NCBI GenBank assembly: GCA_013425455.1 | Contig: JACCLI010000047.1 | Location: 1-39,238, forward strand | Length of the DNA: 39,238 nt | Origin: Microcaldota archaeon | Lineage (GTDB): Archaea > Micrarchaeota > Micrarchaeia > Anstonellales > Bilamarchaeaceae | Direction of reading: 5' to 3' | In this document: one piece after another, positions 5,525 to 38,972 of the stretch | How positions within the stretch are numbered: the stretch's first letter is position 1 | Layout: every line of letters begins with the position of its first letter | Notes under the pieces: model-generated | Told to the model about the DNA's origin: nothing | Databases searched by the model: none | What the model saw: the letters and a program-made list of their open reading frames with translations, nothing else | Program-made: the position numbers and the translations under genes

Positions 5525-6532
5525 ATGGCTGAAGAGGATTTGTTCCACTTTGCTTTTTCGGGATGGGGAGCGGGCGGACCCTGGTTCGTCAACTGCCTTC
5601 TCGCCATCATAGTCGTCGCGGTGATAATGGGCACCGTATACGCCATCTCATACGCATTCAATTTCATGAGCTTGAAGAGGTTCGCGGTTTCGGAGTTCTA
5701 CCAGCTCGCGGCCACGGCGGTTCTTGTGATTTTCCTGGTTGCAATCGTGGAGAACGGGCAGGCATTCTTCCTCTCCAAATATGGGGGGACGGTCATCTGC
5801 CAGGGAGGGGAGATAGACAACACGGTTCAGGCGGCCATGTGCCGCACCGAGGAGAGGCTAACGTATTTCGACAAGACGTTCAATTCCATAAAGGACAGCA
5901 GCGAGCTCGCGGATAAGGAGCTGCGTTACTACTCGTCGATGTCGCTTTTCGGCATAATATTCTGGCAGGGGAACTTCGACGCAAGCCTGCACAAATATGT
6001 GGAGACGCAGCACGCAATAGCCTCCAAGCTCGTCTCGCTCATGATTTCGCTGAACAGCCAGATGTTCGTGCTGAAATACATAAAGGAGAACATGCTCGTG
6101 TTCTTCCTTCCGCTCGGGATAGTGCTGAGGACTCTGCACTTCACGAGGGGAATCGGGGGCTTCTTCATAGCCCTTGCGGTGGCGCTGTATTTCATCTACC
6201 CGGGCATGCTCTTCATAATGGACGCGTCCTATGCGCCCCCTCCGCCGCAGGCGCCCTCTTCCATTTCCAACCGGGCGGACCTGTGCAACATACCTGTTTT
6301 TTCGGGAATGTCCCTGGGCGCCACCACCGCGGAGGGGCAGAGCACGAGGAGCGCCGCTTCCATATCAGTGAGCACCTCCAGCCTCGCGGCGTTCGTGTCG
6401 CAGGTGTTCGTAAAACTGTTCTATGACAACATGGTGGCGCTGGCGATTGCGGTGACGATGATGAGGTACGGGACCATGCTGCTGGGCGGGGACAGCAACG
6501 TTTTCCTGCAGATGATGGGGAGGTGGGTGTGA
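5525..6532 (+). CDS. Polytopic membrane protein, paralogue 6 (VirB6/TrbL-like, inferred)
   Basis: A 335-residue protein whose ATG directly follows the previous stop. AGGTG inside the upstream gene serves as ribosome-binding site. Helices at about 22-46 and 61-77 surround the linker FAVSEFYQLAATA. A polar loop with Cys92 and Cys106 follows. The core (194-228) reads FLPLGIVLRTLHFTRGIGG, then IALAVALYFIYPG. A Pro-rich stretch (YAPPPPQAPSS) and a Ser/Thr-rich loop precede the last helix and the tail LLGGDSNVFLQMMGRWV. The core is the best match to paralogue 4, suggesting a recent duplication or a paired role. Its stop TGA overlaps the next ATG by 1 bp. Confidence 0.8.
   Translation: MAEEDLFHFAFSGWGAGGPWFVNCLLAIIVVAVIMGTVYAISYAFNFMSLKRFAVSEFYQLAATAVLVIFLVAIVENGQAFFLSKYGGTVICQGGEIDNTVQAAMCRTEERLTYFDKTFNSIKDSSELADKELRYYSSMSLFGIIFWQGNFDASLHKYVETQHAIASKLVSLMISLNSQMFVLKYIKENMLVFFLPLGIVLRTLHFTRGIGGFFIALAVALYFIYPGMLFIMDASYAPPPPQAPSSISNRADLCNIPVFSGMSLGATTAEGQSTRSAASISVSTSSLAAFVSQVFVKLFYDNMVALAIAVTMMRYGTMLLGGDSNVFLQMMGRWV
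6519..6526 (+). promoter_or_regulatory. Strong Shine-Dalgarno site that fixes the lipoprotein start
   Basis: GGAGGTGG lies 5 nt before the ATG at 6532 and is complementary to the archaeal 16S 3' end. It excludes the upstream in-frame GTG at 6523, which overlaps it. It is the strongest ribosome-binding site in the operon and sits in front of the first non-paralogous gene, which may allow higher expression of the lipoprotein than of the membrane subunits. Confidence 0.75.
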
Positions 6533-9500
6533 TGAGGGGCATTTCTGTTGTTCTGGCTTTTGCTTTCGTGTTCGGGGCGCTCATGCTCGCGGGATGCGTG
6601 GCTCCGCAGCCATCGTTCAGCAACTGCTGCATGTACGACAACGCGAGCAATGATGAGCGATGCATAACTGCGGACAGGACGGAGTACGATGCGCACGGGT
6701 GCAACATGCTGAACATGACGTGCAACGTAACGCTCGGAGAGGGGGACGACACCGAGCTGCTCCCCATCTGCCCGAAATCCGAGCTTCTGAAATGCAACAG
6801 CAGCTGCGTGGGGATGTTCTGCGGCTCTTTTGAATTTGACCCGCGGCCGCCCATCTCCCTTGATGCGGAAGACATGAACGATTCCCGCGACACCGAGAAC
6901 GCCGACAAGGGCCAGTTCGGAGGGACGAGCAAGGGCGGGGCGAAGGGGCTTTATAACGGAGAGTGCCGGCTGCTCAACATGAGCCCGGCGACCCTGCGCG
7001 CCACCGGGAACACGAACGGGGGCTTCGCGCTCAACAGCTTCAGGTTCGGGGTCGGGGACTCCTTTGCGGAATTTGACGAGGCGAACATGTACTATCCGCT
7101 CACGGATTTCGCCTGCAAGATAAACCAGATGGGGACTATAGACAGGTATGCGAATTATGCGATACCGAATTCGCTAACAGAGGCGGGGACGAGGATTTGT
7201 GCGCCTTCCGGGGACAACAAATGGGTGTGCGTGCCGAGCACCAGCTACTCGGACGTTTTCTTTGAGACATATACATATTTTGACTGCGCCACCAAGTGCC
7301 TCCTGCAATTTTCCGGGGATTTCCCGGGCATAGACCCCAACAGCGCCTACCTCACGGAAAGGAACGGGCAGATGCTGGGGAACCCGTTCGCATACGGGGT
7401 TGCGGCGGATTCGCCCTGGGGAAATCTCATCAACGACAAGGACTACAAGAGCTCGGCTGAGGATACGGCATTTTATGATGGTTATCCCCTCGGGTACAAT
7501 TATTACGGGGCGGATTTCGAGAGGGACGACCGCGTGCTGGGCCCGAACAGGGGGGGCATCGAAGGGCTCCTCGCGGAGAAGGGAAGCGGTGAATTCGGGC
7601 TGCAGAGCGACGTGATGGACTATTATTCGGGCGAAACGGCGGACCTGCCCACCATGAGATGGGACCACCTGCTCGAGAACTTCATAACCGTGGAGAGGGA
7701 GCCGCACAGGATGTATGAATTCCTGCTCACCTACCATTCCGTTTATGCGGACCAGTTCCAGAACGGGCATTATGAAGATAATGGAACCTGGAAGAACGGG
7801 GCGGAGTTCGAATGCACCATGGAGGAGAACGGCTGCCTTTCAGGGTATTGCAACATATTCGATTATTCGCGCGGCGTATGCGTGAACATGGATAATTTAT
7901 CAAAGGACGCGAACTGCGACTGCGTGTATGATTATATTGAAGGGGGGGTGGCCTGCACCGGGAAGAAGCTGTTAAGCTCGCCTTCGTGGGACAGGTACAA
8001 CGACGCGACCTCGAACATAGAGGTGGCGACAACCCTTGCCGCTCCCATAGACCGCGTAGGGGATGGCCCCTACACCCACACATCCATGCCTTCCAAGGGA
8101 AGGACGGTGACGTTCAACCTTGATAGTACGGATTACATAAGCGGACTGGCGGAATCGGACAGGGACGACATAGACAGGTCCTTCCTCGTGATATTCCTTG
8201 GCGGGCAGAACGCCTTCCCGACATACACTGCCTACCAGCCACCCACTGATGACACCGCGGCCCTGTGGAACCAGACGCTCACGATTCCGCAGGTCCTTTC
8301 CCCGGAAAAATGGAGCGGCTGCAGCAGGTATTCGGACTGCGGAAAATTCTATACGACCTTCGTGGACCAGTGCGTGCCTACTTATGAGGAGGACCGGGAG
8401 TTCTACAGGACTAGCTTTGGCGTCTGCTATTCCGGCAGCCCTATGACGACCACTTCATCTTCGATTTTTGGGGGGCTGATTGAGACAAGGGTCCCCTATT
8501 CATACGGGCAGTACCTCAAGCCGGACGGGAGCATAGATGTGGAAAACTGGAACTGCCAGGGGCTCTTCAACTTCGACAAGAAGAAAGTGACTGGAAAGGG
8601 CGACCCTTCAAGGCAGGTCTATTGCTACGCGCGGGACAAGGACGGGAACTGCGAGGCATATTCCACCGCGGCGCTTATGATAAGGGGAAGGGATGTTGAG
8701 TATGAGGACGAGGATAGAAATCTGGTGGAGGGGCAGGCGTTCGGGAAATGCATCCTGGATGGGAGCGGCAACCTGCGCACCAAAACATACGGATATTGCG
8801 ACCAGTGCAGCTTCCTGACAATGGCGAAGGAGAAGGTGGTTGCCCTCCCGGAGAACAAGTTAGACCCGGGCTACCAGGCGTTGCGCGTGGATGGAAGCGC
8901 GCAGAGGAAGGACAATAAGTACTGCCCCTCGCTGATGATAAGCACCATTTATTCCCCGGATGCGGCCTTTGAAATAGAACGAGCCTCGTCTCCGCTTGGG
9001 GAGTGGGAGGGGCAGGGAGTGCACGCTTCGAGCGACGACCCGGAGGATTCGTATTACAGGAGCCAGTGCAGGATGCCGGATGGAAGCGAGGTGGGGATGG
9101 AGGAGGCATGGCCGGATTACCTTCCTAATGCGTATTATCTGAAAACAAAACTGAAGGACTACCTGCAAAGGAACATAATGCCGGTGCTGTTTGCGGATGA
9201 TGACGGATTGTACAGGGCACGCACCACGGACAGGGAGCCATACAAGGACAAGCCGGTGCTGCAGCTGGGCCTTAGCGACCATTTTGAAGCCGTCCAGGCG
9301 GGCACGACCACGAACCCATTGATTGCATCTCTCTGGAAGCGCAACCCCTCCATTTTTGACAAATACGGCCTGCCCGGGGACCAGCCATATGCATACACCG
9401 CACAGGGAACCTATCTTGCGGATTCGGTCATGAACCTCGGGGCCGGAATAATAGTTGTGAAGAACCTGAGCACCGACTTCGTGGAGGGCAGCGACATAGT

Positions 9501-10794
9501 GGCCGGGCTGGAGTGGAGGTCCGGTTCTGTGAGGCTCATGTGCCCGAACTGCATGGTAGCGGTCGCCGCCGGATACAGCGACGAGGGCTCCGGCCCCCAG
9601 ACAAGGATGCGGCTTGTCTCACGGCTCTTCGGATACGGAATTAGATACGGGGCCGGGACGCCGCTTTGGGATGACTATTCATACAACCTATCCTGCGCCA
9701 ACGGGGAGGTCGCGTGCATTTATGAGCGCCTGGATTATGTGGATGTGATTGCTGTGAAATGGGGGTTGGGCGGGCGCAATTCCCATTGTGACATCGAGGA
9801 CGAGCAGGAGAGGTTCGCGGCGATACTCGCGGACGAGATGGAATTCGGCTCCAAGATGCTGCGCAGGTTCGGCAAGCCGGTCGTGGTGACCGACCTCACC
9901 ATAACAAGGCACGAGGGCCTGATTTATGATGAAGGAGTGAGGGACTGCTGGAACGAAACGAGCGCCGCCAAATTTATGGAATACCTCGGCCAGCACACCG
10001 AGGACCTGATAAAGAGCGGGCACATCGGGATTATTTACGGGGACTGGACGTATGACCACTCGAGCGGCACCACCGGCCCCACATATGTAAGGACAAAGGA
10101 GAGCGCGGCTGGTGGATACGTGAGCGGATACAGGGGCTCGTTATATGAGGGGACCCTGCTTGCCTCGAGGGACTTCTCCGGGTATGGAGAGATGACCTCG
10201 CTCATGGAGATACCGGTCAAGGAGAACTGCACCTGCGTCCCCTGCACGTCCACCGACCCGGCGGAGATATGCAATGGAAAATTCGCGGGAAGCGGCGCCC
10301 TCTGCGAATGGGAGGGGGAGCGCGTGATGGTCAAGTGGCCGGACGACTGCATAACCGAAGATGCGTGCATGCCCGGGGAGCAGATGGCCGAATACATGAT
10401 GGACTGCGTGCTTGTGAGCGGAGGGCAGGAGACCGAATTCAGCGTGGACGGGGCGGAGGTCGTCGGGAATCCAGAATTGTACAAGCAGATGATCGCATCA
10501 ATAGAGAATACGGTGGACAGGCCGTGCTTCATGAACAAAACCTACGGCAAGACGCAGATCACAAGGTTCCTTTCCCATCCCCTTCTCTTCAGGAAGGACG
10601 GGAACATGAGCTATACCTGCAATCCGCTCTCCGTGGCGCAGGGGGCAATGTGCGGGCCGCTCCCGAGCTTGGACCTTGAGCAGATGAGATGCACCCTGAG
10701 GATAAAGACCGGATGGCTGACGCCCGGCGGGGTTCCGAGCCCCGGAGGGTTGCCGTCGCTGCCAAGCGGGCCTGGGGGGCCCATCGGAGGATAA
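6532..10794 (+). CDS. Very large cysteine-rich lipoprotein with TIM-barrel-like C-terminal domain
   Basis: A 1420-residue protein. The N-terminus is a lipoprotein signal with lipobox LAGC (Cys22), so the mature protein is probably lipid-anchored outside the membrane. Residues about 23-850 are Cys-, Tyr- and Asp-rich with many short cysteine pairs and no family I recognise. Residues about 900-1180 look like an alpha/beta barrel: alternating hydrophobic strands, VLQLGLSDHF, LDYVDVIAVKWG and GKPVVVTDLTITRHEG, the last resembling the GKPhhhTEhG strand of glycoside-hydrolase barrels with Asp in place of Glu. A cysteine-rich segment (CTCVPC) and a Pro/Gly tail (SGPGGPIGG) end it. It is co-transcribed with the membrane cluster (1-bp overlap). 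A surface-exposed enzyme or adhesin is inferred; the barrel assignment is by eye. Confidence 0.7.
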   Translation: MRGISVVLAFAFVFGALMLAGCVAPQPSFSNCCMYDNASNDERCITADRTEYDAHGCNMLNMTCNVTLGEGDDTELLPICPKSELLKCNSSCVGMFCGSFEFDPRPPISLDAEDMNDSRDTENADKGQFGGTSKGGAKGLYNGECRLLNMSPATLRATGNTNGGFALNSFRFGVGDSFAEFDEANMYYPLTDFACKINQMGTIDRYANYAIPNSLTEAGTRICAPSGDNKWVCVPSTSYSDVFFETYTYFDCATKCLLQFSGDFPGIDPNSAYLTERNGQMLGNPFAYGVAADSPWGNLINDKDYKSSAEDTAFYDGYPLGYNYYGADFERDDRVLGPNRGGIEGLLAEKGSGEFGLQSDVMDYYSGETADLPTMRWDHLLENFITVEREPHRMYEFLLTYHSVYADQFQNGHYEDNGTWKNGAEFECTMEENGCLSGYCNIFDYSRGVCVNMDNLSKDANCDCVYDYIEGGVACTGKKLLSSPSWDRYNDATSNIEVATTLAAPIDRVGDGPYTHTSMPSKGRTVTFNLDSTDYISGLAESDRDDIDRSFLVIFLGGQNAFPTYTAYQPPTDDTAALWNQTLTIPQVLSPEKWSGCSRYSDCGKFYTTFVDQCVPTYEEDREFYRTSFGVCYSGSPMTTTSSSIFGGLIETRVPYSYGQYLKPDGSIDVENWNCQGLFNFDKKKVTGKGDPSRQVYCYARDKDGNCEAYSTAALMIRGRDVEYEDEDRNLVEGQAFGKCILDGSGNLRTKTYGYCDQCSFLTMAKEKVVALPENKLDPGYQALRVDGSAQRKDNKYCPSLMISTIYSPDAAFEIERASSPLGEWEGQGVHASSDDPEDSYYRSQCRMPDGSEVGMEEAWPDYLPNAYYLKTKLKDYLQRNIMPVLFADDDGLYRARTTDREPYKDKPVLQLGLSDHFEAVQAGTTTNPLIASLWKRNPSIFDKYGLPGDQPYAYTAQGTYLADSVMNLGAGIIVVKNLSTDFVEGSDIVAGLEWRSGSVRLMCPNCMVAVAAGYSDEGSGPQTRMRLVSRLFGYGIRYGAGTPLWDDYSYNLSCANGEVACIYERLDYVDVIAVKWGLGGRNSHCDIEDEQERFAAILADEMEFGSKMLRRFGKPVVVTDLTITRHEGLIYDEGVRDCWNETSAAKFMEYLGQHTEDLIKSGHIGIIYGDWTYDHSSGTTGPTYVRTKESAAGGYVSGYRGSLYEGTLLASRDFSGYGEMTSLMEIPVKENCTCVPCTSTDPAEICNGKFAGSGALCEWEGERVMVKWPDDCITEDACMPGEQMAEYMMDCVLVSGGQETEFSVDGAEVVGNPELYKQMIASIENTVDRPCFMNKTYGKTQITRFLSHPLLFRKDGNMSYTCNPLSVAQGAMCGPLPSLDLEQMRCTLRIKTGWLTPGGVPSPGGLPSLPSGPGGPIGG

Positions 10795-10796
10795 AA

Positions 10797-10802
10797 TTTA
10801 AA
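10797..10802 (+). promoter_or_regulatory. TATA box for the giant tail protein
   Basis: TTTAAA begins 3 bp after the lipoprotein stop, centred 27.5 bp before the ATG at 10827. That spacing places the transcription start at or next to the start codon (leaderless). The last large gene can thus be transcribed on its own as well as from the upstream operon promoter. Confidence 0.55.
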
Positions 10803-10826
10803 GGTGAGCATATCCATAAGAGACAT

Positions 10827-13800
10827 ATGCGGAAGGCTTTGCTGGCCGTGCTTTTTCTCATTCCAGTACTTTTTTCCATAGTCCCGGATTTGGGCGCAGG
10901 GGCTTATGGCGCTTCCGCGCCGGGCATCTCCAACTCACGGGTCCGCATCGACATAAGCGGGGTGCACCTCATAAATCCGCAGGACGTCTGCCCCTCCTGC
11001 AGCATATTCACAACACAGCCTTTCATGGCTCCCTCCATAAACGAGGAGGAGAAGACCGTTTCCGTGAGCATGGGCGTGATAAACGAGAGCGGAGTGACGG
11101 CGGTGGAGGGGGCGACCCTTTTTGCATATGTACAGAAGGCTGACGGGAGCAACTCAAAAAGATGCAGGATATACACCAATGCGAACGGGAGCGCGAAAAT
11201 AAGCTACAACCCGGTCGACTGCCAGGACGGGTGCACTGTCAAGTTTTTCTTCTGCTGCGCCAACCCCGTCGCGCTCGCCTGCGTGCTGGAGCCCTGCCTA
11301 GGCGAGCCCGTCACCGCGTATAGCGACGTCCCAGCATGCGGCAGTGATGGATACGGGGGAGGGGAATGGCCCTCCAACGCCACGGTGGGTGGGCAGGAGA
11401 TACAGCTATACCCGACCCTAGAAGAGGCGGCGATACCCCCGAGGGCAGTGCTGCCCGGATTTGAATACACTTTTACGCTATGCTTCCCTCTCCTCATGAT
11501 ATTCGGCTTCCTGGGTGCGGCGATGTACGCGTCGGGCAGGGACCCGTTCGCGATGTTTTCATTCTATACCCCAAGGTTCACGCGGGGCATGGAGAGGCCC
11601 ATACAGGGAAGGGGATACACCATCCCGGGCTCTTCAATAATCAATGTCGCGATGAAGGCGACGGATCTAGGGACAGGGAAAACCTCCGCAAATGAGATGT
11701 TCGTTAGTTCGATGGAACAGAGCCCGATGGTCGCAAAAACCAAGGGCGCAGCTGGTGAGTTGGGAGGAGCCAAAGGAACCGCAACTGAAAGAGCAGGTGC
11801 AGGAAGGGCTAGTGCAAGCCAGGAGGAGCTTACAAGCAGGACGTCCGCTGACCGGATGGTTGCCGGGGGTTCCGGCGCAGTCATCGGCCAGAGCATCGGG
11901 GTTTCCGAGAGCATGATGCGCCCCGGCGAGGCAGGCGTTGGCGTGGGAACCGCGCTCCTTGCGCTGCTCGGGATAATGCTGAGGTTCTCAAATGCTCCCT
12001 GGCTCACAGGAGGGCTTTCACAAAGATTGATTGGAATTGCCGATGCATGGCAGGCCGAAAGGGTCTCGGGCTATTTCCAAACGAATGCGGCGCCAATAGC
12101 AGGAAGCATGCACGTTCGGTTTGACTCGGAAGGGAATGTCAGCCAGCTCACATATGTAAGCCCGCAAACCGGTGAAACGGTGACGGTTGAGGGTGTCGAC
12201 AAATGCAGGGCATTCGTAGATTCGGTGAGGAACGGCCTTGCCGCGAATGCCCAGGCGGGCGATAATAATGCGATTGATGGCCTGAACCAGTTCAATGAAC
12301 GGGTTGCGAACCTCCAGCACCCTGTGACCGGGGCGCGGGCAATGCTGATTGCTGAGGGAAGCAGGGAGGGTGGCCCTACTGGGGAGGTTCTTGCTGCAAT
12401 GGCAACGCTTGCAGACCCGAGTTCTTCTCCTGACAAGAGGCGCCAGGCCCTTGAAACTATTGCCAATTCGGACCAGGTTTCTGGGGATGTAAAAATAGCG
12501 GCGTTCGTTGCCGCAAGCGACGGAATGAATTATCAGCAGTTTGCCGCTTTTGTTGGTGCGGAAGGTTCTTCTGCGGCCAGGATATTCGGGGAACTAACTT
12601 CAAATTCTGCGGCGCTAAATGAAAGGCTGGACGGGAAGATTGACGGGAACATGCTCGGCGCGATAGGCGCGGCTGCGGAGAGGCTCGAGCAATTAAATGC
12701 CGGCAGGAGGGAAGGCCAGGCGGACAGCCTCGGCATCGGAACTATTGTCGCAAACATGAGGAGCGATATGGGCGAATGCCGTGGGGGCCCGGAAGTGTTT
12801 GTTTTCAGGAGCGGAACGGAAGATTCAGCCGCCAGGATGGCTGCAATGGGCCTCTCCGGAGCCGCATTGGATATGCGCATAAGCCTTGACGCGTTGGGCC
12901 AACGCACCGCAGAAAACGGCGAGGTAACCGACGGAATCGGCCAACGCCTGATTCTCGGCCATTTGAGTGCTGATGCACGCGCTGAGGTGGAGGCTGCGAT
13001 GGACAGCGAGGGCAGGGTGGACATATCCAAGCTAAGCGGAAATGCGAGAGGAGAATTGGGCAGTGTGATAGAACAACAGGTGAGAGGGGCAATTGTCAGT
13101 GAATACAATGTCGCCTACTCGCAACAACAGGCGACGGATTTCAAGAATGGCAACTCGGGGGAGGCACTTACCCTGAGAGACTTCCAGGAGGCGCTTGGGA
13201 ACTATGCGGCGGCAACACAAAGCTCCTACGAGATCATGAATGCGCAGGTTATGGGCCCTGCAAGGGAGGAGGCGCTCGCACTAATAGAGAGGAATCCGAA
13301 TCCAGTGGACAACCTGGGCAGGCTCACCACGATGGTCCTGCCTGAACAACTGGCAGCAAATGATGTGAGGGCTGTCATGGAGAGGCGGGGGATAGACCCG
13401 GAACTGGCAAGCATCATGGTTGGGATAGCGGGGGCGCAGGCGCAAGTAGGCTTCATTAATGGCCGCTATGAGGAACGTCCTGATGGCCAGAGGGAGTACG
13501 TACCGGGCCTCAGCGAAAGGCTTGGATTGCTGGCCATGGGGCCTACGGAATCCTACGGGCAGAGGGCAGACAATGCATATGCCAGCCTTGCTGAGATAGA
13601 CCGGCAGGTGGCTGAATTCAACGGCGCCATACAGACGCTTGACAATCCAAATGCGAGCCCGGAGGAGAAGGAACACGCGAGAGGGGTGGTCGCTGGGGGT
13701 ATGGAGCCATTTTTGGAGTACAAACGGGCCGAAGCCTCGCAGATTCTCGAAAACCCGGAAGCAAGCCAAGCGGACAAGGAATGGGCAACAAGAATTATGG

Positions 13801-14951
13801 CTTTGGACCCCGCCACCGCATTCACTGATGAGGGGCAGCGGGGGACACTCTGGCAGGAATACAATGCCCATATGGGGGAGCAGAAGGACCAGCAAAGAGC
13901 GGAAATGGAATTTGGAAGAACTAGGGAAAGCATATTTGCATCGGGGCCGCCTCTGGGCCAGCCTTCTAACGAACAGGAGAGGATAGCGGCGCAGGAAAGG
14001 GAAGCCGCCCTCCGGCAGGCGGTCGAGCAGTATACAACCTCCGCTTATTCACAAGCTGAAACCAAGCCAGACTCCGGACAGATTATACAGTTTACCATAT
14101 ACGGGGATCCGAATGCCAGGGAGATGCTCGATGCAGCAAGGCCCAACCTTCCCGCCACGGTCCAGGCGCAGCTTGACACGTTCCTGTCTAATACCGCATC
14201 ACAAGAAGAAAAATCACGTGCCCTGGACGTGCTTGTGCCCGCCCTCGATAATTATTATAGATATGCCGAAAATTCTGCCGATGACCGGCTCACTGCAGCG
14301 GACCGCAGCGAAGCTCAATGGGCAGTACACACTCTTACGACTTCCGAGGACTCCTCCGCCCGCCAACAAGCCGCAGAAAGTCTCCGCGAACTGAGAGGAG
14401 TGTCAGGTGAGGCGCAGCCTGGAATAGACGCGCTGATTGCTACGGCAACCGTGCCGCCTTCGCAGTGGACAGACGAGCAAAGGGCGAATCTCGGAGCTGT
14501 GTTGCCCAAGGTCCAGGAAAGGCTGGATATATATTTCGACACCACTGGCTATGACAGGGCGATTTCAAATCCAGATGGAACGAGGCAGGGGCTCATAAAC
14601 GATTATGCGAACGACAGGCAAAGCGAACTGAATGCGACCCGGGATTGGGCACAACAGGCAGGCACCGCTGCAGCCAGAACAGAGTACGAAACCGCGCAGA
14701 TACAGGTATCCCTTCTGGGAAATGAAGCGATAGACCGCTTTTACCAAAACATGGATGCGAACAGGGAGATTGCGGAAAGGGCCGCAAGGAACGTCACGGA
14801 ACGCGGATCAGAGAGTGTCGGGGCAGAGATTGCGGGAAGAGGCGGCTGGAGCTCCGAATACCAGGCTGCCGACAGCGCGTTTGCAGCAAGAAGGGCTGAA
14901 GAAGAGAGGCGCCGCAGGGAGCAGGGAGGCAGCGAAGGGGGGCAGAGGTAA
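10827..14951 (+). CDS. Giant membrane-anchored protein with Ig-like N-domain and long Gln/Ala/Glu-rich tail
   Basis: A 1374-residue protein. The ATG at 10827 is chosen because it starts a signal peptide (RKALLAVLFLIPVLF) at leaderless distance from a TATA box. An upstream in-frame extension would overlap the lipoprotein gene. Residues about 65-150 resemble an Ig/Big-type beta domain (TLFAYVQKADGS, then TNANGSAKISY) with paired cysteines. A transmembrane segment at about 207-235 is followed by a linker with FTRGMERPIQGRGYTIPGSS, a second hydrophobic stretch at about 372-390 (GTALLALLGIMLRF), and then nearly 1000 residues of hydrophilic, mostly helical sequence with few cysteines and many Asp-Asn-Pro-Ala/Ser-Pro-type turns. 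It ends RRAEEERRRREQGG. The domain order suggests a wall- or host-facing head with a long tail on one side of the membrane. Function is unknown. Confidence 0.7.
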   Translation: MRKALLAVLFLIPVLFSIVPDLGAGAYGASAPGISNSRVRIDISGVHLINPQDVCPSCSIFTTQPFMAPSINEEEKTVSVSMGVINESGVTAVEGATLFAYVQKADGSNSKRCRIYTNANGSAKISYNPVDCQDGCTVKFFFCCANPVALACVLEPCLGEPVTAYSDVPACGSDGYGGGEWPSNATVGGQEIQLYPTLEEAAIPPRAVLPGFEYTFTLCFPLLMIFGFLGAAMYASGRDPFAMFSFYTPRFTRGMERPIQGRGYTIPGSSIINVAMKATDLGTGKTSANEMFVSSMEQSPMVAKTKGAAGELGGAKGTATERAGAGRASASQEELTSRTSADRMVAGGSGAVIGQSIGVSESMMRPGEAGVGVGTALLALLGIMLRFSNAPWLTGGLSQRLIGIADAWQAERVSGYFQTNAAPIAGSMHVRFDSEGNVSQLTYVSPQTGETVTVEGVDKCRAFVDSVRNGLAANAQAGDNNAIDGLNQFNERVANLQHPVTGARAMLIAEGSREGGPTGEVLAAMATLADPSSSPDKRRQALETIANSDQVSGDVKIAAFVAASDGMNYQQFAAFVGAEGSSAARIFGELTSNSAALNERLDGKIDGNMLGAIGAAAERLEQLNAGRREGQADSLGIGTIVANMRSDMGECRGGPEVFVFRSGTEDSAARMAAMGLSGAALDMRISLDALGQRTAENGEVTDGIGQRLILGHLSADARAEVEAAMDSEGRVDISKLSGNARGELGSVIEQQVRGAIVSEYNVAYSQQQATDFKNGNSGEALTLRDFQEALGNYAAATQSSYEIMNAQVMGPAREEALALIERNPNPVDNLGRLTTMVLPEQLAANDVRAVMERRGIDPELASIMVGIAGAQAQVGFINGRYEERPDGQREYVPGLSERLGLLAMGPTESYGQRADNAYASLAEIDRQVAEFNGAIQTLDNPNASPEEKEHARGVVAGGMEPFLEYKRAEASQILENPEASQADKEWATRIMALDPATAFTDEGQRGTLWQEYNAHMGEQKDQQRAEMEFGRTRESIFASGPPLGQPSNEQERIAAQEREAALRQAVEQYTTSAYSQAETKPDSGQIIQFTIYGDPNAREMLDAARPNLPATVQAQLDTFLSNTASQEEKSRALDVLVPALDNYYRYAENSADDRLTAADRSEAQWAVHTLTTSEDSSARQQAAESLRELRGVSGEAQPGIDALIATATVPPSQWTDEQRANLGAVLPKVQERLDIYFDTTGYDRAISNPDGTRQGLINDYANDRQSELNATRDWAQQAGTAAARTEYETAQIQVSLLGNEAIDRFYQNMDANREIAERAARNVTERGSESVGAEIAGRGGWSSEYQAADSAFAARRAEEERRRREQGGSEGGQR

Positions 14952-35420: not shown

Positions 35421-35663
35421 ATGGAAACAGACGTGGATTTGCCGTCTTTTCCTTTAAAAAAGTATCCGAACAAAGGAGAACCCATGATAGAGATTAATCA
35501 CGATAGGTGCATACAGTGCGTGGGATGCGCGTCCGTGTGCCCCGTGCTCGCAATAGAGCTGGTGGGGCTGAGGATGAAGACCTATCCGGAGAAGTGCATA
35601 AGCTGCAAGGCTTGTGTGAGGGTTTGCCCGGCGGATTGCATTAAACTAATAGAAAAGAAGTGA
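35421..35663 (+). CDS. 2[4Fe-4S] ferredoxin
   Basis: An 80-residue small electron carrier with two complete cluster motifs, CIQCVGCASVCP (30-41) and CISCKACVRVCP (59-70). Each cluster takes three Cys from one motif and the fourth from the other. A 21-residue N-terminal extension is kept because the TATA spacing fits the ATG at 35421. It lies immediately before geranylgeranyl reductase, with the reductase ATG 5 bp after its stop. In Methanosarcina acetivorans an adjacent ferredoxin of this type supplies electrons to that reductase, so the same job is likely here. Confidence 0.9.
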   Translation: METDVDLPSFPLKKYPNKGEPMIEINHDRCIQCVGCASVCPVLAIELVGLRMKTYPEKCISCKACVRVCPADCIKLIEKK

Positions 35664-35668
35664 ATCCT

Positions 35669-36883
35669 ATGGATTACGATTATGATATCATAATAATAGG
35701 GGGAGGACCCGCGGGGGCTTCCATGGCGAGGATTGCCGCCCAGAACGGAATGAGCGTAATGATTTATGATAAAAGGAAGGAATTGGGCGAGCCGGTGAGG
35801 TGCGGGGAGGGGCTCGGGCAGAGGGAGGTGCTCGCGCAGGGGATAGATTTGCCGAGATGGTGCTTCTCAACGGAAATCCACGGGGCGAAGGTGATTGCGC
35901 CCAATGGGAAGAGCATAACCTGGAAGAGCAAGGATACGAAGGGATGGGTGCTCGAACGAAAAATGTTTGACAAGTGGCTAGTGGAGCTGGCCGTGGAGAA
36001 GGGCGCGAAGGTGAAGACTTATGCCAGGGTTACGGATTTGGTGAAGAAGGACGGGAAAATAGATGGAGTGATGGTCTCGCAATGGGGCAAGGAGCCGTTT
36101 GAGGTCCGGGCGCCACTGGTGGTTTCGGCGGAGGGGATGGAGGCAATCGTTGCCCGTAAGGCGGGGCTGAAGGCCATGTCCACGCTCTATGATGTGGATA
36201 CGTGCTACCAGTATGAGATGAAGCCCTACGACCATGAGAATCTGATAGAACTCTATTTTGGGAACAAGATTGCACCGAGGGGGTACGTATGGATATTCCC
36301 GAAGGACGCGAAGAAGGCGAATGTGGGAATAGGGATAGGCGCGCACCTCACGAACTGGAAAAAAGGAGGGAACGTGGATGGGGCGGACCCCAAAATCCTT
36401 ATGGACAGGTTCATAGAGAACCATCCCCAATTGAAGGATTCCAGCGTATTGCAGGACTTCGGGGGGGTTATTTCGGTCGGGGCGCCGATAGAGTCATTCG
36501 TGAAGGACGGGTTCATGTGCATCGGGACCGCGGCGAAGCAGGTGGACCCCATACACGGGGGCGGGATTGCGCTTGCGATGGAGACGGGCATACTGGCTGC
36601 GGCGATTGCGAAGAAGGCGCATGGGAAGAAGGATTACTCGGAAAAGGCGCTGAAGGAGTATGAGAGCATATGGAGGGCCGGGCCGGGGAAGAAGATGGCG
36701 AAGAGGCTGCTCTTAAGGAAAGTGATGGAGGAAGTGAACGATGATGATTTGAACCATATCTTCAATACCATTACGGATGCGGATTTGCAGAAGGTAATGG
36801 AGGGGAGCTTTGCCGGGCCTGTGGCGAAAGTGGTTGGCGGAAGGCCGCAATTATTGCGTATTCTGAAGGCTCTGATTAGCTAA
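35669..36883 (+). CDS. Geranylgeranyl reductase (digeranylgeranylglycerophospholipid reductase)
   Basis: A 404-residue FAD enzyme that saturates the isoprenoid chains of archaeal membrane lipids. The Rossmann motif is YDIIIIGGGPAGASMARIAA (5-24), followed by KRKELGEPVRCGEGLG, which matches the family's PxxCGE(G/A) region. The second FAD-binding block is CIGTAAKQVDPIHGGGIALA (about 283-302). The start is the ATG at 35669 rather than the overlapping GTG at 35660. Operon partner is the ferredoxin; together with hmgA the window covers early and late steps of lipid synthesis. Stop overlaps that of the convergent GGDEF gene. Confidence 0.92.
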   Translation: MDYDYDIIIIGGGPAGASMARIAAQNGMSVMIYDKRKELGEPVRCGEGLGQREVLAQGIDLPRWCFSTEIHGAKVIAPNGKSITWKSKDTKGWVLERKMFDKWLVELAVEKGAKVKTYARVTDLVKKDGKIDGVMVSQWGKEPFEVRAPLVVSAEGMEAIVARKAGLKAMSTLYDVDTCYQYEMKPYDHENLIELYFGNKIAPRGYVWIFPKDAKKANVGIGIGAHLTNWKKGGNVDGADPKILMDRFIENHPQLKDSSVLQDFGGVISVGAPIESFVKDGFMCIGTAAKQVDPIHGGGIALAMETGILAAAIAKKAHGKKDYSEKALKEYESIWRAGPGKKMAKRLLLRKVMEEVNDDDLNHIFNTITDADLQKVMEGSFAGPVAKVVGGRPQLLRILKALIS

Positions 36884-38220
36884 ATTATCGGGCGGAAGGA
36901 AAGCTCGCCGTTCTTTGCGATGGGCATGGCTGCCCCGTTCTTTCCTGCCAGTTTTACGAAGTACATCGCCATGTCGGCAAGGTCTATCATGAGCTGGCAC
37001 CAGTCCTTTGCATATTCCAAAAGCTGGCCGTCCACCTTGTCCGGGAGCTTCTTCTGCCTACGGATGCGCTTGAGGTCCGCATCGCATTTCTCCCTCATCT
37101 CCTTCATACGCTCTATGCGCTCCACGACCCTTTTCATTATCTCCTGCTTGAAATCCACGGGAAAGCGCCTCACCTCGCGGAGCTCCTGCCAGATGGATGA
37201 GCCAACCACGCCGACGCTGGTGCGTATCCCGAGTGGACCGGACTCTGTCTGACAAACCATTGGGTCGAAGAGGCTGTGGAGGTATGTGCCGTGCCGTTCG
37301 ATGTCCTGGATGGTTGCGACGCCTGGGTTGAGGAGGAAGAATTCCTCGCCCCCGTACCTGGAGGCGAAGCCGCCCGCCTCGGAGCGGAGCCTGGAGCCAA
37401 GTATGCCCATCACCTCGTCAGCGGTGCCATGCCCGTAAGTGTCGTTGAATTCTTTGAAGTCGTCTATGTCGATCATGGACGCCGCGAAGCGCCTTTTTCT
37501 CACTATGCTGGCGATGGCCATCTTAAGGAGCACCTCGTTGAGGAACCGCCTGTTCCAGAGGTTTGTGAGCGGGTCTATGTTCTTGATTTCCTCGTCGCGC
37601 TGGGTATAGAGCTCCTGCCAGATGAGGCGGGCCATTCCAACAAGATAGTCCAGCTGTTCGTTGTCCCTGCTCCCCGAAGGGTTCACGAAGCCCTCCACCG
37701 CGACCATGTGGGTGACATCCATGTGGCCCCTGGACATGTTTCCGAGGGGTATCCAGCAGCCGCAGTTGCCGAATGAGGTGGTCAGGCTTTCCTCCCGCAT
37801 GTTGAAGTCGTCCGGGTCGGAGGTAAATAAGGATATCTTGTCCCCGTTGAAAATTACGGTCTGGCCGCCCAGTATCTTGCCTATGCGGGGGTCCGTGCGC
37901 ATCATGAACTCCCTCTGCTCGCTTCCGATGGGGGTGCCGCCCACCCGCGACATCAGGCGGAGGCCGTCGTCCTTCGCCTCCCAGAGCTCCACCTTGGAGA
38001 GGTTCGGGTCGGTGGTGAGAATCTCCTTCATTATGAAGTTGCGCCGGTTGTGCCTGTGCCCCACCATGTGGAGCCTGCGTACGACTGAGCTCTGGGAGCG
38101 GAAAAAGGATGTTTGGGGGTCCTTCAGGCCGAATTCCTTGGGGGCTGGCGGAGGCTGGGATGCCCTTGTATCCTGGCAACCCGGGCTGGGTGGAGCTGAA
38201 AGTCTGGATTTATCATTCAT
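36880..38220 (-). CDS. GGDEF-domain protein (putative diguanylate cyclase) with GAF-like sensor
   Basis: A 446-residue soluble protein from the ATG at 38220; a TTG at 38229 is possible. Residues about 60-205 look like a GAF-type sensor (MKEILTTDPNLSKVELWEAK to QLDYLVGMARLIWQELY). The GGDEF domain has DPLTNLWNRR (216-225), SMIDIDDFKEFNDTYGHGTA (248-267) with the metal-binding Asp, and SRYGGEEFFL (287-296), an intact GGEEF active loop. The usual RxxD inhibitory site is absent (RSEA). Between SVGVVG and the closing ADMAMYFVKLAGKNG lies an insertion of about 50 extra residues, mostly charged coiled-coil. Active-site residues suggest c-di-GMP or related dinucleotide synthesis. GGDEF proteins are rare in archaea. 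Confidence 0.85.
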   Translation of the reverse strand: MNDKSRLSAPPSPGCQDTRASQPPPAPKEFGLKDPQTSFFRSQSSVVRRLHMVGHRHNRRNFIMKEILTTDPNLSKVELWEAKDDGLRLMSRVGGTPIGSEQREFMMRTDPRIGKILGGQTVIFNGDKISLFTSDPDDFNMREESLTTSFGNCGCWIPLGNMSRGHMDVTHMVAVEGFVNPSGSRDNEQLDYLVGMARLIWQELYTQRDEEIKNIDPLTNLWNRRFLNEVLLKMAIASIVRKRRFAASMIDIDDFKEFNDTYGHGTADEVMGILGSRLRSEAGGFASRYGGEEFFLLNPGVATIQDIERHGTYLHSLFDPMVCQTESGPLGIRTSVGVVGSSIWQELREVRRFPVDFKQEIMKRVVERIERMKEMREKCDADLKRIRRQKKLPDKVDGQLLEYAKDWCQLMIDLADMAMYFVKLAGKNGAAMPIAKNGELSFRPII

Positions 38221-38243
38221 ACTATTCAACCAACTATAACTAC

Positions 38244-38305: not shown

Positions 38306-38398
38306 ATGTTCGCTTTCGATGAAGACGAGGACTGGGAGGACGAGGACTTCGACGACGAGGAATGGGGAGAGGACGGAGAAGAGGAGGAAGAGGGCTAG
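38306..38398 (+). CDS. Tiny highly acidic protein
   Basis: A 30-residue open reading frame beginning MFAFDEDEDWEDED and ending GEEEEEG. About two thirds of residues are Asp or Glu, plus two Trp and three Phe. CAGGTGG 5 nt upstream is a good ribosome-binding site, and a clear hairpin plus T-run terminator follows 26 bp after the stop. It is thus framed as its own transcription unit. It could be a nucleic-acid mimic or a basic-protein partner; that is guesswork. Low complexity means the coding call rests on its signals. Confidence 0.55.
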   Translation: MFAFDEDEDWEDEDFDDEEWGEDGEEEEEG

Positions 38399-38510: not shown

Positions 38511-38972
38511 ATGGGAATTATGGACTACTTCCTGGGTGGAAAGAGAGAGGAGCCGAGAAAGGCTGCGTCTGGTGCGCCTATGGCCACGAAGCCGGTGGAG
38601 AAGCCGTTTGCGATATCCACAAAATTCAGCGCACTGAGGCTCAGGACCGGGAGGAACAGCAAGATATTCATAGAGGTGAACGTGAAGAACATAAGCCCCA
38701 CGAAGCAGCTGGTTTCCGTGGATTTGGGGCTTCCCCTGAACTCCAAGATAGGGTTCGACGTGAACTGCAACCAGAACTATATCGAGAAGAGATTGGGGGA
38801 GATCGCCCCGGGGGCGGCTGCGGACTTCACCGTCCCGATTTATGCCTCAAGCCTTACGAAGGAGGGGAGCTACACCGTGGAGATAAATGCATTCTCGCAC
38901 TATATAGATTACAAAAAGGTATTGTCCCAGATGAAGAAGAAGGTTGCGCTGAGGGCAGTCTCCGGGGCTTAG
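38511..38972 (+). CDS. Uncharacterised Ig/CARDB-like domain protein
   Basis: A 153-residue soluble protein; AAGGTG 6 nt upstream supports the ATG. After a charged N-terminal stretch of about 40 residues, residues about 42-135 show a beta-sandwich pattern: KIFIEVNVKNISPTKQLVSV, DLGLPLNSKIGFD, GEIAPGAAADFTVPIY, SYTVEINAFSHY. The phrase LGEIAPGAAADFTV is typical of CARDB/APHP-type domains. There is no signal peptide, so it may act in the cytoplasm. The C-terminus is basic (SQMKKKVALRAV). A TATA-like TTAAAAATT lies at 38472-38480. Function unknown. Stop overlaps the convergent metallo-beta-lactamase gene. Confidence 0.75.
   Translation: MGIMDYFLGGKREEPRKAASGAPMATKPVEKPFAISTKFSALRLRTGRNSKIFIEVNVKNISPTKQLVSVDLGLPLNSKIGFDVNCNQNYIEKRLGEIAPGAAADFTVPIYASSLTKEGSYTVEINAFSHYIDYKKVLSQMKKKVALRAVSGA

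Follow-up and report, generated by a model that had tools for sequence, protein, structure and literature searches.

Diguanylate cyclases of the canonical kind (PF00990/TIGR00254), such as PleD, WspR, and DcsBis (PDB 4zmu), share a catalytic fold, a metal-binding Asp, the GG[DE]EF motif, a guanine-contact Asn/Asp pair, and an N-terminal regulatory module. The protein described here has the same features, the N-terminal module being a putative sensor, but it is archaeal, it has no RxxD I-site, it carries a hairpin of about 60 residues before the last helix, and no EAL, PilZ, HD-GYP, or MshEN domain was found in its genome. The Hypr GGDEF enzymes, among them the 3',3'-cGAMP synthase GacA, also have the same fold, whereas the present protein has Asp in place of Ser/Thr at the specificity position and GGEEF in place of GGDEF. 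Natural Hypr enzymes with Ser/Thr at that position carry GGDE[F/Y] exclusively, and in GacA mutants the Ser/GGEEF combination is inactive, while Asp/GGEEF is active as a GTP-only cyclase (PMC6456294).

Surveys have found c-di-GMP signaling to be almost absent from archaea and caution that archaeal GGDEF reports need a contamination check (PMC5847659, PMC10086821). Galperin et al. (2018) described one archaeal GGDEF protein, from Methanocella, and an inactivated one from Micrarchaeum, and left contamination open (PMC5847659). The latter belongs to the same phylum as our protein and has a GGDEF-derived domain, but it was described as an inactivated form joined to a receiver domain; the protein described here lacks such a domain, and its loop is intact. 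BLAST searches by Braun et al. (2021) gave over 300 archaeal GGDEF hits, with Asgard and DPANN archaea supplying many of them (PMC8646023), and a 2022 review still wanted confirmation in archaeal contigs (PMC10086821). The putative DPANN proteins of Braun et al. were counted only, while we examined distribution, motif state, absence of partners, synteny, and selection. In groundwater, diguanylate cyclase genes were 1.7-fold commoner in sediment-enriched ultra-small MAGs, with bacteria and archaea pooled, and the Micrarchaeota of that study were all planktonic (PMC9938205). In a search of mostly open-access papers, we found none that analyzes Micrarchaeota GGDEF proteins beyond the Micrarchaeum note.

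The gene, its product, and the predicted fold

The window, that is, the whole stretch of 39,238 nucleotides analyzed here, is one entire contig of a 986-kb genome that is 85.8% complete with 0.2% contamination. The GGDEF gene, its parts, and its neighbors are as follows.

35421..35663 (+), ferredoxin-like gene; synteny kept
35660..36883 (+), geranylgeranyl reductase (GGR) family gene, the convergent neighbor; synteny kept
36880..38220 (-), GGDEF protein gene; 446 aa if started at the ATG, 449 aa if started at the TTG at 38229
36934..36978 (-), ADMAMYFVKLAGKNG, C-terminal GGDEF helix with Lys423, from alignment
37006..37185 (-), helical-hairpin insert of about 60 residues (approx. 346-405) before the C-terminal helix, from alignment, model, and spacing
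37201..37578 (-), GGDEF catalytic core (residues 215-340), from profile matches, model, and dN/dS
37339..37353 (-), GGEEF signature motif (290-294), from residue check
37417..37446 (-), N259...D268 guanine recognition pair (equivalent to PleD N335/D344), from alignment and residue check
37456..37476 (-), MIDIDDF with metal-binding Asp251, from alignment with 18 bacterial GGDEFs
37579..37671 (-), linker helix 184-214 from sensor to GGDEF domain, in the predicted model
37672..38091 (-), putative sensor domain (residues 44-183), alpha/beta in a modest-confidence model; no Pfam match
38092..38220 (-), N-terminal 43 residues, Pro-rich, predicted to be disordered (pLDDT <50 for residues 1-43), weakly conserved
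38511..38972 (+), divergent neighbor gene; synteny kept

Residues are numbered from the ATG; the in-frame TTG lies three codons upstream. The Pfam GGDEF profile (PF00990) matches residues 214-339 with E=2.3e-22 and 79.9 bits, against a curated cut-off of 23.8 bits. TIGR00254, the NCBIfam model for diguanylate cyclases, gives 84 bits against a cut-off of 37.4. A residue check placed D216-P-L-T, M249-I-D251-I-D-D-F, N259, D268, and R288-Y-GGEEF294 in the core, and A415-D-M-A-M-Y...K423 near the C-terminus. Asp251 does not vary across the alignment with 18 bacterial GGDEFs or in alignment A3. The protein thus has the residues of an active diguanylate cyclase, namely, the metal Asp251, GGEEF, and the guanine-contact pair N259/D268, and the claim of the earlier note that this is a genuine archaeal gene with an intact active loop is borne out; both guanine-specificity residues are in place. 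The same note was right that the RxxD feedback site is missing; EAGG is found at that position, and RxxD is absent from the orthologs as well.

The spacing between GGEEF and ADxAMY is 120 residues, whereas most bacterial GGDEFs in the comparison have 54-61, so that the window protein has about 60 extra residues. An insert inside the domain had been noticed previously, with an estimate of about 50 residues, and is indeed present. In an AlphaFold2 model built with 18 bacterial relatives, the insert is predicted as a helix at 359-389 and an N-terminal extension of the helix at 398-424, with pLDDT of about 80-95. Both predicted helices are amphipathic beyond shuffled sequences (p ~0.005), which would be consistent with packing, and the hairpin is common to the genus.

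The mean pLDDT of the whole model is 74.5, and that of the GGDEF domain is about 76-95. The PDB matches of the model are diguanylate cyclases, with DcsBis (4zmu) first at E=5.8e-12. Since the matches that superpose best are GGDEF domains on their own, they support the GGDEF part of the model and tell little about the N-terminus. Residues 44-183 are probably sensor-like, judging from the alpha/beta fold modeled at modest confidence; folded as a single sequence, this domain reached a mean pLDDT of 46. A GAF identity was suggested by the multiple alignment and the model, but a profile-profile comparison did not support it: hhalign against bacterial GAFs gave a probability of 0.2%. The N-terminal domain has no Pfam GAF match.

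Conservation, distribution, and origin

Three further genomes of the genus share the order and orientation of the ferredoxin, GGR, and GGDEF genes, and each has RtcA upstream. The 38511 gene lies downstream of the GGDEF gene in two of the three; in the remaining one (G027), the GGDEF gene is cut off by the contig end. Identity to the window is 90-91% for GGR and 79, 69, and 33% for the GGDEF protein. In a fifth genome of the genus (G025), the absence of the GGDEF gene carries no information, as the assembly lacks the syntenic GGR too. The window contig carries archaeal-type genes (geranylgeranyl reductase, HMG-CoA reductase, RtcA), in agreement with the earlier note, which saw archaeal genes around the GGDEF gene; no bacterial flanks are present. 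Thus, the conserved locus shows that the GGDEF gene is a settled resident of the genus. The stretch separating the GGDEF gene from the 38511 gene also contains an extremely acidic ORF of 30 residues, MFAFDEDEDWEDEDFDDEEWGEDGEEEEEG, at 38306-38398 (+), conserved in two of the congeneric genomes (G028 and G026).

The GGDEF gene is under purifying selection. Whole-gene dN/dS is 0.18-0.26 among the three intact GGDEF copies, and it is 0.16 for the GGDEF core of the window protein against two orthologs. By contrast, the ortholog in G026 (L064:2282-3535 (-)) has a dN/dS of 0.49-0.64, with the adjoining GGR at 0.09. This copy, still in synteny, carries D268S and GGEEL, and its NDTYGH loop is broken. 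Loss of catalytic residues in close relatives, which the earlier note had named as a weakness to look for, is therefore seen in one of the three orthologs, while the other two are intact. Judged by the GacA mutants, the Asp/GGEEF combination of the window protein would be the active one, and that of the G026 protein comes close to the inactive Ser/GGEEF. The G026 copy is thus probably an inactive GGDEF protein, offering a natural comparison in synteny. As its residue combination is inactive elsewhere, activity would not be universal in the genus; catalysis has probably been kept in some but not all of its members, and the window protein itself is probably catalytic in its own species.

Pfam GGDEF matches above the cut-off were obtained in 112 of the 301 genomes of the phylum and in 28 of the 43 genomes of the family. 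The statement that c-di-GMP signaling is largely undescribed in archaea consequently needs qualifying, given these genomes and the more than 300 hits reported earlier (PMC8646023). Among 112 distinct Micrarchaeota GGDEF ORFs, the metal Asp and GG[DE]E[FYL] are intact in 82 and RxxD is kept in 79; the ORFs were drawn from the best GGDEF matches, so these fractions are not unbiased, and the set includes L053 (the same gene as L002) from a suspect contig of genome G042. Because c-di-GMP is the ligand of RxxD in bacterial enzymes, the conservation of this motif favors c-di-GMP as the likely product in many Micrarchaeota and, together with the intact signatures, argues that the phylum makes c-di-GMP. 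In a scan of named genome contigs, the GGDEFs found were all bacterial. G027 carries a second, short GGDEF protein (232-234 aa) with an intact I-site, which forms a starred clade with sequences from three genomes of another genus (L007, L003, L004, L005), suggesting that this second cyclase is shared or was transferred.

In a tree built on 165 columns, a starred clade free of bacteria unites 49 micrarchaeal rows that belong to several families. The genus of the window protein sits outside this clade on its own long stem, where the nearest rows by path are bacterial. A separate bacterial transfer into the genus or its ancestor, in place of an old phylum-wide gene, is one possible reading of this placement, which we hold only tentatively and which is compatible with the other readings considered below. 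It would also fit the absence of GGDEF from G031, a genome of another genus of the same family, in which no GGDEF match lies beside the GGR locus. However, the data do not reject a single origin of all micrarchaeal rows with respect to the bacteria sampled (p-AU 0.415); furthermore, these bacterial sequences are few and were selected for their similarity to the window protein, and 165 columns resolve little.

Signaling partners

A search for partners in the genome itself, as the earlier note had proposed, gave no EAL, PilZ, HD-GYP (HD_5), or MshEN domain, the genome being 85.8% complete; bacterial controls were positive in all of these searches. Thus, there is no known reader or eraser in the genome. 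PilZ was found in none of the 301 phylum genomes and MshEN in none of the 43 family genomes. The c-di-GMP riboswitch search (RF01051) gave no match, but its control search was equally silent, so that this result carries no information. EAL was above the cut-off in one of the 301 genomes (G042), and we rejected this candidate (L173, G042:C42:1-6441) as a probable contaminant, since the GGDEF-EAL protein is on a 6.4-kb contig without an archaeal marker. That contig has three long frames, and the GGDEF-EAL protein, with AGDEF and a receiver-like N-terminus, is bacterial in look.

HD_5 (HD-GYP-like) was above the cut-off in 24 of the 301 genomes, none of them in the window's genus, and some of the proteins have a true HD-GYP motif, for example, HHERWDGKGYP. 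HD_5 and GGDEF co-occur above expectation (16/24 vs 96/277, Fisher p=0.003, with kinship ignored). True HD-GYP motifs are present in L154, L155, L156, L157, and L159, from several Micrarchaeota genomes, and such proteins are possible archaeal c-di-GMP phosphodiesterases. In family f19, HD proteins (L151, L152, L153) have HHEKLNGKGYY or a close variant replacing GYP, and their genomes also carry GGDEF.

Proposed mechanism and alternative readings

We consider the gene product fairly likely to be an archaeal diguanylate cyclase that is specific for GTP, lacks product inhibition, and feeds a c-di-GMP pathway. The domain, its residues, the synteny, the selection, and the predicted fold are the basis for this reading. 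In the proposed mechanism, the N-terminal alpha/beta domain, probably a sensor, would be coupled by the long helix to the GGDEF domain. Upon activation by a putative signal, a pair of GGDEF domains would dimerize and join two GTP molecules into c-di-GMP. As it has no I-site, the cyclase would escape inhibition by its own product. The hairpin insert beside the C-terminal helix would most likely aid dimer packing or partner binding, and the c-di-GMP product may act via receptors outside the known families. We suggest more tentatively, as a possibility somewhat short of even, that the Micrarchaeota run a c-di-GMP system with receptors, and mostly erasers, unrelated to EAL, PilZ, and MshEN, in which the cyclase of this genus is insensitive to its product and has a helical insert.

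Since the G026 ortholog looks inactive, yet stays in place, the gene may have a noncatalytic role. The GGDEF domain would then bind GTP or nothing, as a scaffold or nucleotide sensor, with the loop retained for nucleotide binding only. The missing c-di-GMP receptor and phosphodiesterase families in the genome would fit such a role, as would the D268S/GGEEL copy kept in G026, given the inactive Ser/GGEEF form of GacA (PMC6456294), and the Micrarchaeum protein, in which REC is fused to an inactivated GGDEF (PMC5847659). However, we regard this as unlikely, because the window species and two orthologs retain a complete active site that is subject to purifying selection, and because the dN/dS of the G026 copy is raised relative to theirs, as if constraint had been lost there.

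It is still much less probable that the product is a different cyclic dinucleotide (3',3'-cGAMP or c-di-AMP), in the manner of Hypr GGDEFs. The known c-di-GMP readers are missing, and Hypr enzymes do use the GGDEF fold (PMC6456294), but D268 with GGEEF is the guanine-specific combination, and the Hypr combination of Ser/Thr with GGDE[F/Y] is not what the window protein has. Finally, bacterial contamination or a mis-binned contig has practically no chance of explaining the gene, even though GGDEF is a bacterial hallmark, the closest noncongeneric matches are bacterial (top 61 bits, vs 45 bits for the best micrarchaeal match from another genus), and GC3 of the gene is slightly above that of its neighbors, since archaeal lipid and mevalonate genes share the contig, the genome has only 0.2% contamination, and the conserved synteny rules it out, with the RtcA-ferredoxin-GGR-GGDEF order, and a GGR of 90-91% identity, in three independent assemblies.

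The protein itself, read as a diguanylate cyclase, is a variant of a known enzyme; it is the phylum-wide pattern of GGDEF proteins without partners that deserves attention. Synteny, purifying selection, and the phylum-wide count remove the contamination doubt for the window gene, and archaeal c-di-GMP becomes directly testable. The missing readers point to new receptors in genomes of about 1 Mb, which are small enough to search. Elsewhere in the window, at 6523-10794 and 10689-14951 (+), there are two very large adjoining ORFs, each about 1420 residues long.
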